DNA of 37,355 bases from Leptolyngbya sp. (lineage in GTDB: Bacteria > Cyanobacteriota > Cyanobacteriia > Leptolyngbyales > Leptolyngbyaceae). Positions 13,517 through 18,223 of this stretch are shown piece by piece. The notes beneath the pieces are model-generated. The model did not search any database. It saw only the letters and a program-made list of their open reading frames with translations, and was not told the origin of the DNA. Position 1 is the first letter of the stretch. Every line of letters starts with the position of its first letter. The DNA is taken from the NCBI GenBank assembly GCA_003249025.1, contig QBMH01000021.1, positions 1 to 37,355 of the forward strand, given 5' to 3'. The position numbers and the translations under genes were made by a program.

Positions 13517-13557
13517 AGGATTTGTACACTGGAACTGTCAGGCATAGGAAAAAGCTC

Positions 13558-14100
13558 ATGGCATACGTTTGTGACTTAGGCAGCGGACAGCGAATTTCTC
13601 TGGACGGTCAGGGAGCGCAAACCATTGTCGCGATCTCCAGTAATAGCGCCGGACAACAGCAGCAAGCAACTAGCAGTTTGCAAACAGGCACATGGACTGC
13701 TCCTCCTGAAGTCTATCGAACTTCTGAGGGAGTTGTGGTTAAGCTGCAAACCGCCAATGGAACTCAGTTTATTCAAATTCAGGGCAGTCGTATGGGCATG
13801 GTCGCCACGCCTCCGTCCTTGACTAATGCGGAACAACTGCCGACCCAGCAAACAAATGTTTCTGATTCCACAATGCAGCCGATGAAACCCATGCAGCCCA
13901 TGAATATGGGCACCATGCAGATGAATCTAAAGCCGATGGAAATGAAAATGGGCGATATGGAAATGCGGATGGGATCAGCTTCTGCGGATTCTATAAATGC
14001 TGCAAAGCCTGCTCCTACGCGGCAATTTTGCACTCAATGTGGAGCATCGATCAAACCGAGCGATCGCTTTTGCGCTAGTTGTGGTCACCAAATCGTGTAA
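13558..14100 (+). CDS. Zinc-ribbon protein with Met-rich linker
   Basis: A 180-residue protein with three parts. Residues 1-85 are a mostly beta N-terminal domain (AYVCDLGSGQRISLDGQGAQ). Residues 106-138 hold 13 methionines in 33 residues, in patterns such as MxxM and MxM. Residues 157-180 form a zinc ribbon with C158, C161, C172 and C175 (CTQC and CASC). The ATG at 13558 follows AGGAAAAAG; an upstream TTG start at 13522 is poorer. Met-rich segments bind Cu(I) or Ag(I) in some copper proteins; whether this one binds metal is inference. It lies just upstream of a manganese riboswitch and exporter, on the same strand. No function is known. Confidence 0.75.
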   Translation: MAYVCDLGSGQRISLDGQGAQTIVAISSNSAGQQQQATSSLQTGTWTAPPEVYRTSEGVVVKLQTANGTQFIQIQGSRMGMVATPPSLTNAEQLPTQQTNVSDSTMQPMKPMQPMNMGTMQMNLKPMEMKMGDMEMRMGSASADSINAAKPAPTRQFCTQCGASIKPSDRFCASCGHQIV

Positions 14101-14107
14101 ATTCTGG

Positions 14108-14113
14108 TACACT
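14108..14113 (+). promoter_or_regulatory. Candidate -10 box for manganese-exporter leader
   Basis: TACACT at 14108-14113 would give a transcript start near 14120, just where the riboswitch begins at 14124. A -35 box is not clear; TTGTGG at 14079 is too far. A small dyad, TCAGAA-TG-TTCTGA (14113-14126), overlaps the same site. Weak call. Confidence 0.3.
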
Positions 14114-14123
14114 CAGAATGTTC

Positions 14124-14321
14124 TGAAGGGGAGTAGCTGCTGGTTTTCCAGCCCATCTGAATCAACATACTGGCGCAAAAGCCTGGTTCAGGTGACAAAT
14201 AGGATAGTTTGCAATAGAAGTTTTAGCGATCGTCGGTGGCTGTTTGAAGAGTGCTTCACAGTCAACGACTAGTTAACATTGTTGTCAACTATGTAAAGCC
14301 TTTTTGCAAGCGAGACCTTCA
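14124..14321 (+). promoter_or_regulatory. yybP-ykoY manganese riboswitch aptamer
   Basis: The two hallmarks of this aptamer class are present. The 5' part reads TGAAGGGGAGTAGC (14124-14137) and the 3' part GCAAGCGAGACCTTCA (14306-14321). TGAAGG pairs with CCTTCA to close helix P1. Inside are a GCTGG-TTTT-CCAGC hairpin (14139-14152), an arm CATCTGAA/TTCAGGTG, and the conserved loop segment TCAACATACTGG (near 14162-14173). The region before the 3' part is longer than usual, about 100 extra bases. The class senses Mn2+ and typically raises expression of manganese exporters. Here it precedes exactly such a gene. Confidence 0.88.
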
Positions 14322-14337
14322 CTGAGTTCACTGTTGA

Positions 14338-14406
14338 GTGAGCTTGGTGGAGTCTCATGTCTCTAATCAAGCTCACGCTGCACTTGCACGTTTGATTAGG
14401 AGATTG
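14338..14406 (+). promoter_or_regulatory. Expression platform with alternative hairpins
   Basis: Hairpin A pairs GTGAGCTTG (14338-14346) with CAAGCTCAC (14368-14376). Hairpin B pairs CTAATCAA (14363-14370) with TTGATTAG (14392-14399), and its extension with TCTC can pair the GGAGA of the ribosome binding site, with one G bulged. The two share the bases CAA at 14368-14370, so both cannot form together. A would free and B would hide the ribosome binding site TTAGGAGA before the ATG at 14411. This looks like a translational on/off switch governed by the aptamer (inference). Confidence 0.65.
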
Positions 14407-14410
14407 AATC

Positions 14411-17223: not shown

Positions 17224-17362
17224 AACGATTTGCCTTTCGCCTGGTGAGCTAACCTTTGAATAAGATTTCTCCTAAAAGGAGATCACCTTGATTTCTAGGG
17301 GAACTCTTCCTAATAAGTTACAAAGTCCCGGTCGAAAATTTAACGTTGCTAAGTGGATTACT

Positions 17363-18223
17363 ATGGATTGGTCACAAACCCTAAAGCAGCCAAAATATTG
17401 GCTCTTAGCGCTGGTTGCCGCAATTGCCACAATTCACCTGACATTGCTCAGTCGGCTCGATAATTCAGAACTATTTGCGACTTGCCTGTTGTTTTGGATT
17501 GCGGCAGGTTCACTGATTTGGGATCGATATGAAACTTTAAATCTTGAAAGCAATTGGGTTGCAAGCCTGCTTGGAGCCTTGGTTGTGATTGGCATGATTA
17601 CCAGGGCAGGATTATCGCCCGATTCAGTTTCCTCTGCGTGGGTGCTGCCGTTGGTGGCAGGATTGGGCACCGGATTATTAGCGTCGGGGTTCAAGGGGCT
17701 TAGGCAATACTGGCGAGAATTCATCATTTTTGGTCTGCTAGCGGTCTATCCCTTACTCCGGCTCACTCTGGAAGCGATCGATTTGTCAGAAATAACCGCA
17801 AAAGCAGCATCTTTTGTGTTGTGGTATTCCGGGTTTCCAGTGCGACTGCAAGGAGTCTTTTTGTTGATGCCCACGAGTCGCGTGGAAGTCTATGGTGCGT
17901 GTTCTGGCATTCAAAGCATTCTCCAATTGCTGAGTATTTCGGTGTTGTTTTTGCTGATGTTTCCTGTGCGATCGCACATTCAAAAAGTTCTGTGCGTCGT
18001 AGCAGCCGTGGTCATCGGCTTTGTGGTAAATGCGTTGCGGGTCGCATTGATGGCAATTCTCAACAATGCGGGAAACAAGAGTGCGTTTGACTATTGGCAC
18101 GAAGGACAGGGTTCCTTAATCTTTTCGGCGATCGCGGTTCTTGTTTTCGGATGTTTCTGCTGGTTCTTTTTCTTGCGTAAACCTGACCAAAAAACAGATT
18201 CAGGAGCCGAAGGGAATGCTTAA
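17363..18223 (+). CDS. Cyanoexosortase A
   Basis: A multi-pass membrane transpeptidase-like protein of the exosortase family, which processes proteins with C-terminal PEP-CTERM-type sorting signals. In the 286-residue form about eight hydrophobic segments are seen. The catalytic triad is C180 in GACSGIQS, R226 in NALRVALM and H246 in HEGQGSLIF. Two starts are possible: ATG at 17363, which matches family length, and TTG at 17288, which has a good ribosome binding site (AGGAGA) six bases upstream and would add 25 residues. It is followed at an 8-base overlap (ATGCTTAA) by the associated protein, which suggests translational coupling. No PEP-CTERM substrate gene is visible in this window. Confidence 0.88.
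   Translation: MDWSQTLKQPKYWLLALVAAIATIHLTLLSRLDNSELFATCLLFWIAAGSLIWDRYETLNLESNWVASLLGALVVIGMITRAGLSPDSVSSAWVLPLVAGLGTGLLASGFKGLRQYWREFIIFGLLAVYPLLRLTLEAIDLSEITAKAASFVLWYSGFPVRLQGVFLLMPTSRVEVYGACSGIQSILQLLSISVLFLLMFPVRSHIQKVLCVVAAVVIGFVVNALRVALMAILNNAGNKSAFDYWHEGQGSLIFSAIAVLVFGCFCWFFFLRKPDQKTDSGAEGNA

Follow-up and report, generated by a model that had tools for sequence, protein, structure and literature searches.

A candidate Mn2+ riboswitch in the leader of a Leptolyngbya GDT1 gene and its conserved cyanobacterial expression platform

As judged from its sequence features, the leader of a GDT1/UPF0016 (Mnx-type) gene of Leptolyngbya sp. is a further member of the known yybP-ykoY class of Mn2+ riboswitches. 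It very probably acts as a translational ON switch, in which high Mn2+ would turn on translation of the exporter through a relay of mutually exclusive helices. Computation showed the aptamer, the helices with their co-variation, and a switch of the predicted nascent fold upon masking of the aptamer helix P1.1. Mn2+ is the presumed ligand, as suggested by class membership and the target gene. The window, i.e., the whole stretch of DNA analysed, comprised 37,355 nucleotides. An earlier note on this DNA had proposed a translational switch made of two hairpins. Its class, its gene and its mutually exclusive hairpins were recovered, but the scheme was incomplete, as the anti-aptamer helix had been missed. 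The features of the leader are compiled in Table 1.

Table 1. Positions of the leader features in the window.
Feature	Position	Strand	Basis or remark
Source DNA, Leptolyngbya sp. contig QBMH01000021.1	1-37,355	forward	GCA_003249025.1
Likely promoter -10 box TACACT	14108-14113	+	Conservation among relatives
Candidate Mn2+ (yybP-ykoY) riboswitch aptamer	14124-14321	+	5' of GDT1/UPF0016 (Mnx-type) gene
Switch helix P1.1, 5' strand UGAAGG	14124-14129	+	Pairs with 14316-14321
Metal-binding loop L1, 5' strand GGAGUAGC	14130-14137	+	Near-invariant in 42 aligned cyanobacterial leaders; also in E. coli mntP
Aptamer hairpin P2	14139-14143 with 14148-14152	+	Both-side changes in 5/5 pairs
Helix P3, with loop L3 and P3.1 (14154-14194)	14154-14164 with 14184-14194	+	Covarying pairs; RF00080 alignment
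Metal-binding loop L3, ACAUACU	14165-14171	+	Core identical to E. coli mntP
P3.1	14172-14174 with 14181-14183	+	Within P3 region
Variable P4 arm	14195-14309	+	One long arm, fold z = -3.0
L1, 3' strand GCGAGA	14310-14315	+	GCGAGA columns invariant, 51/51 aligned leaders
P1.1, 3' strand CCUUCA, switching strand	14316-14321	+	Masking in nascent RNA permits hairpin A
Anti-aptamer hairpin, predicted OFF state (14312-14356)	14312-14316 and 14318-14332 with 14337-14356	+	Platform minimum-energy fold
Hairpin A, predicted ON state, 15 bp, A14365 bulged (14338-14376)	14338-14352 with 14361-14376	+	Fold of 14322-14385
Hairpin B, predicted OFF state, 12 bp, G14399 bulged (14359-14404)	14359-14370 with 14392-14404	+	Platform fold
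Ribosome binding site AGGAG, 8 nt before ATG	14398-14402	+	Sequence
GDT1/UPF0016 (Mnx-type) Mn2+ exporter gene, 206 aa	14411-15031	+	PF01169, E = 2.9e-46, two repeats

Aptamer, class membership and distribution

Three aptamer motifs were read directly from the window: GGGGAGUAGC at 14128-14137, UCAACAUACU at 14162-14171 and GCGAGACC at 14310-14317. All three are present in E. coli mntP. The claim that the aptamer carries both class hallmarks held for the L1 and L3 motifs, in their position as well as in their agreement with mntP, and the open reading frame behind it, described in the note as an Mnx-type exporter gene, was identified as GDT1. The four arms of the four-way junction were represented by P1.1, P2 and P3, which co-vary, and by P4, which folds. 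Both conserved loops, L1 (GGGGAGUA...GAGACC) and L3 (ACAUACU), were present and near-invariant in relatives. Compensating changes among cyanobacterial leaders were found in 14 of the 19 aptamer pairs, with strong support for P2 and P3. P1.1 was GAAGG/CCUUC in 87 of 102 leaders, GAAGG/CUUUC with a G-U pair in seven and the compensated GAAAG/CUUUC in five. Compared with shuffled sequences, the leader folded with z = -5.9. The length of P4 in the 102 leaders ranged from 17 to 210 nt with a median of 37, and the window, in which 114 nt separate P3 from the 3' half, exceeded 97 of them. The insert of about 100 bases that had been regarded as unusually long thus corresponds to P4, the variable arm in the four-way junction known for this class, and is odd in length only and not in kind.

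No match of the window to the Rfam family RF00080 was obtained at the gathering score of 45 bits, which is a curator's cut-off and not a structural feature. A focused scan gave 33.1 bits (E = 1.7e-7) at 14127-14210, far ahead of other families, and the window aptamer was the best RF00080 site in the whole 5.46-Mb genome (E = 7.4e-6). The E. coli mntP riboswitch, with 41.6 bits, also fell below gathering, E. coli alx gave no RF00080 match at E ≤ 0.01, and none of 19 clear cyanobacterial relatives passed the gathering score. Since mntP and alx fail it as well, the cut-off says little about class membership. The score is lowered because the model, as aligned, ends before the 3' half of L1 (the GAGACC strand) and P1.1. 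Class membership was argued from structural features instead. The earlier note had named a missing RF00080 hit as a refutation of its proposal. Formally, the hit was missing at gathering, but the focused scan returned it, and the refutation was dropped once mntP and alx had been run as yardsticks. Rfam matches to mir-1017, SNORA44 and others (E > 0.01) were rejected as chance matches of eukaryotic families to hairpin A and the aptamer.

Leaders were gathered from Mnx-type loci and by whole-genome searches, and 102 leaders upstream of GDT1 were retained after removal of near-duplicates. At the DNA level, the window leader matched 40 of 58 relatives. A covariance model, R1, was built from the 5' part of the aptamer in cyanobacterial leaders. 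It matched 181 of 390 Cyanobacteriia genomes as well as E. coli mntP (E = 3e-5). The same arrangement of aptamer and hairpins recurred in about 100 cyanobacterial leaders. The genes behind the aptamer were Mn homeostasis genes, GDT1 in the window and MntP (PF02659) in two other genomes (L124; L150 and L170). In L124, the whole downstream platform was plainly the same as in the GDT1 leaders. The placement of this aptamer class before MntP, an exporter unrelated to GDT1, suggests that the entire leader was moved or recruited as a unit.

Further copies were observed in individual genomes. Two Mn aptamers lay 1.1 kb apart in one genome (L131 63-1500, the same stretch as L171). The first preceded a cytochrome b561-family gene (PF01292), an unexpected target of a Mn riboswitch, and the second preceded GDT1. 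L159 and L165 held apparently degenerate additional aptamer copies, and these genomes also carried an intact one. The genome of the window contained a second GDT1 locus (G000:C99:7071-7527) with two short frames, perhaps paired half-transporters, at which neither RF00080 nor R1 found an aptamer match.

Most relatives showed a TATAAT/TACAAT-like box at a similar distance, about 10 bases, upstream of P1.1. By its strict rule, a generic promoter scan of the window gave no sigma-70 promoter, and the -10 box was therefore called on conservation. It is located just past the end of the upstream gene (14100), and transcription probably starts near 14120, immediately before the aptamer. The product of the upstream gene (13534-14100) contains a stretch rich in methionine (MQPMKPMQPMNMGTMQMNLKPMEMKMGDMEMRMG) and has a zinc ribbon at its C-terminus. 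An exosortase EpsH family gene (PF09721) was present at 17288-18223.

Competing helices of the expression platform

Four consecutive strands make up the platform (fold z = -3.7). The first, a', comprises the 3' strand of P1.1 and what follows it; b and c come next, and the last, d, is the ribosome binding site. They give rise to three competing helices: a'-b forms the anti-aptamer hairpin, b-c hairpin A and c-d hairpin B. The anti-aptamer hairpin takes the 3' strand of P1.1 and competes with both P1.1 and hairpin A. It was recovered unprompted by RNAalifold from 51 leaders, with 96.9% of cells paired and four pairs changed on both sides. The switch needs this hairpin because hairpins A and B alone leave Mn2+ binding unconnected to the ribosome binding site. 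Hairpin A had 92.8% of cells paired and four pairs changed on both sides. Hairpin B showed 77.9% of cells paired in the consensus register, partly because the ribosome binding site is masked in a different register in some leaders, the window included. The register of the window (CUAAUCAA/UUGAUUAG) was seen only there and in L003, the closest relative; in most relatives, this site is masked by UCAAGCUC..CUCAG / CUGAG.GAGCUUGA.

Both hairpins of the earlier note, A (14338-14346/14368-14376) and B (14363-14370/14392-14399), exist but had been drawn too short, as both were larger by folding. Likewise, they do share bases, and the shared stretch is 14361-14370 instead of 14368-14370. The pairing of hairpin B with GGAGA of the ribosome binding site was borne out, the folded hairpin taking in AGGAG.

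In an alignment-free swap test, partner strands were exchanged between species in 5000 permutations. None of them was as good as the native partners for any of the three helices, and native partners were better by 2.9 kcal/mol for the anti-aptamer hairpin, 4.5 for hairpin A and 4.2 for hairpin B. Strand c had been placed by matching it to b, so that both the swap test of b-c and the nascent-chain test described below are biased toward b-c pairing at all, with no bias toward its dependence on P1.1; the a'-b and c-d results are unaffected. Arms of A and B that mutate without compensation had been named beforehand as evidence against the switch. The swap test argues for compensation in both hairpins, whereas position-by-position co-variation of hairpin B was weak, with 81 of 500 shuffles reaching its covariation score, because the ribosome binding site is itself constrained. 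Support for hairpin B came mainly from the swap test.

For the nascent-chain test, the RNA was truncated after strand c, as during transcription, and the six bases of the P1.1 3' strand were removed or masked. With this strand masked, the median probability of hairpin A rose from 0.03 to 0.83. A shift upward was seen in 79 of 99 leaders and a shift downward in none; in the window, the probability changed from 0.00 to 0.83. Scrambled loop segments, used as control, caused no comparable rise. Deletion of six bases 5' of the P1.1 strand had been tried as a neutral control and rejected, as it also raised hairpin A. It is not neutral because the L1 3'-strand bases belong to the anti-aptamer hairpin, and loop scrambling was adopted for this reason. 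The ribosome binding site of the window was unpaired with a probability of 0.20 when strand c was free versus 0.76 when it was masked. At equilibrium of the full platform without the P1.1 strand, only 10 of 97 leaders showed an opening of the ribosome binding site above 0.1, among them the window, where the unpaired probability rose from 0.19 to 0.45. Since the equilibrium effect is small in most species, the model requires co-transcriptional folding. Release of the covering structure by the ligand-bound aptamer helix is predicted by computation in the nascent-chain form only.

Proposed mechanism and alternative readings

We infer that the switch works in the ON direction in the cell and that its steps follow one another during transcription. 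At low Mn2+, the emerging RNA would fold the anti-aptamer hairpin, which takes the 3' strands of P1.1 and L1. This hairpin would lock 14337-14356 and leave the strand 14359-14370 free to pair with 14392-14404, covering the ribosome binding site. At high Mn2+, the metal would dock L1 and L3 and keep P1.1 closed, so that the lower half of the anti-aptamer hairpin would be lost. Half of 14338-14352 would thereby be exposed and could capture 14361-14376 during transcription. Once hairpin A had formed, this strand would not be available to hide the ribosome binding site, and the exporter would be synthesized.

The anti-aptamer hairpin could instead be an intrinsic terminator at low Mn2+, as in L. 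lactis, whose formation P1.1 prevents. In the transcriptional Mn riboswitch, the P1.1 3' strand does go to the terminator (PMC11087558), the anti-aptamer hairpin lies at the same place as that terminator, and TTTT follows it within 10 nt in 28 of 99 leaders. However, the hairpin in the window is followed by UCUCAUGUCUC, and the combination of hairpin and U tract typical of a transcription-terminating riboswitch was absent there. A terminator scan of the window found nothing at this position. Pairing with GAGAC of L1 also accounts for the U-rich GUCUU that relatives carry, and under antitermination the helix that covers the ribosome binding site, conserved and co-varying as it is, would have no role. 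This mode of control was considered very unlikely.

The RF00080 score below gathering would fit a structured leader whose aptamer is degenerate or retuned and responds to another divalent ion or acts constitutively. Against this stand the core bases of L1 and L3, which are intact and the same as in the E. coli mntP riboswitch, and the targets, two unrelated Mn exporters, making loss or change of Mn2+ sensing highly improbable. Alternative folds exist for any 100-nt RNA, and the platform hairpins might be chance structures in an ordinary untranslated region beside a real aptamer. This has next to no probability given the z-scores of leader and platform, the outcome of the swap tests, the conservation of the architecture in about 100 leaders and the contradiction by co-variation. 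The leader is functional-looking, and its conserved cyanobacterial platform is best read as a translational ON switch, a result that is useful rather than revolutionary.

Significance and comparison with known systems

Manganese is essential for cyanobacteria, owing to photosystem II, and is also toxic to them. The only identified Mn regulator in cyanobacteria named in a review and a 2024 study was ManS/ManR (PMC7020235, PMC11649195). The class, its Mn2+ ligand and the link to UPF0016 were already known (PMC7380456), as were translational control in E. coli mntP (PMC9603457) and, from a transcriptional member, the role of the P1.1 3' strand as a switch (PMC11087558). A survey credits the riboswitch to nearly all bacterial UPF0016 genes, in 328 of 333 strains (PMC7380456, citing Dambach 2015). 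No experimental study of a cyanobacterial Mn riboswitch was found in the searchable literature, outside which most subscription papers lie. The leader represents a concrete candidate for a Mn-excess sensor with named switching strands, and the cyanobacterial members fall under the present Rfam cut-off. The chances appear evenly balanced that about half of the cyanobacterial species control Mn export by one conserved relay of anti-aptamer hairpin and hairpins A and B, which would decide the exposure of the ribosome binding site during transcription before GDT1 and MntP and would fill the place of the missing sensor of Mn excess in oxygenic phototrophs. If so, the relay would have been overlooked because cyanobacterial aptamers score below this cut-off.

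With the yybP-ykoY class (RF00080; L. lactis, X. oryzae, E. coli alx and mntP), the leader shares L1 (GGGGAGUAGC...GCGAGACC), the L3 core ACAUACU, P2, P3 and a variable P4 in one four-way junction, the switch helix P1.1 and the control of a Mn exporter. The cyanobacterial form differs in its score below Rfam gathering, in its consensus GAAGGGGAGUAGCUGCUGG...UCAACAUACUGG...CCUGGUUCAG and in a conserved downstream platform of its own. The E. coli mntP riboswitch has the aptamer motifs and a Mn exporter target in common with the leader, but its downstream sequence and fold are different and it controls MntP, not GDT1. It has experimental support and is reported to turn on translation initiation, and other class members bind Mn2+ at tens of micromolar at near-neutral pH (PMC9603457). 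In the E. coli alx riboswitch, a hairpin right after the aptamer takes the P1.1 3' strand (GACCUUGCC/GGCGAGGUC), as does the anti-aptamer hairpin. Downstream of it comes a single long hairpin with a U run at its end, no A/B-type relay was seen there, and the exporter belongs to another family. The L. lactis-type transcriptional Mn2+ riboswitch likewise has the P1.1 3' strand common to aptamer and expression platform (PMC11087558), but acts by a transcriptional terminator, in contrast to masking of the ribosome binding site in the cyanobacterial leader. The ManS/ManR two-component system also senses Mn in cyanobacteria and differs as a protein sensor that controls uptake (mntCAB).
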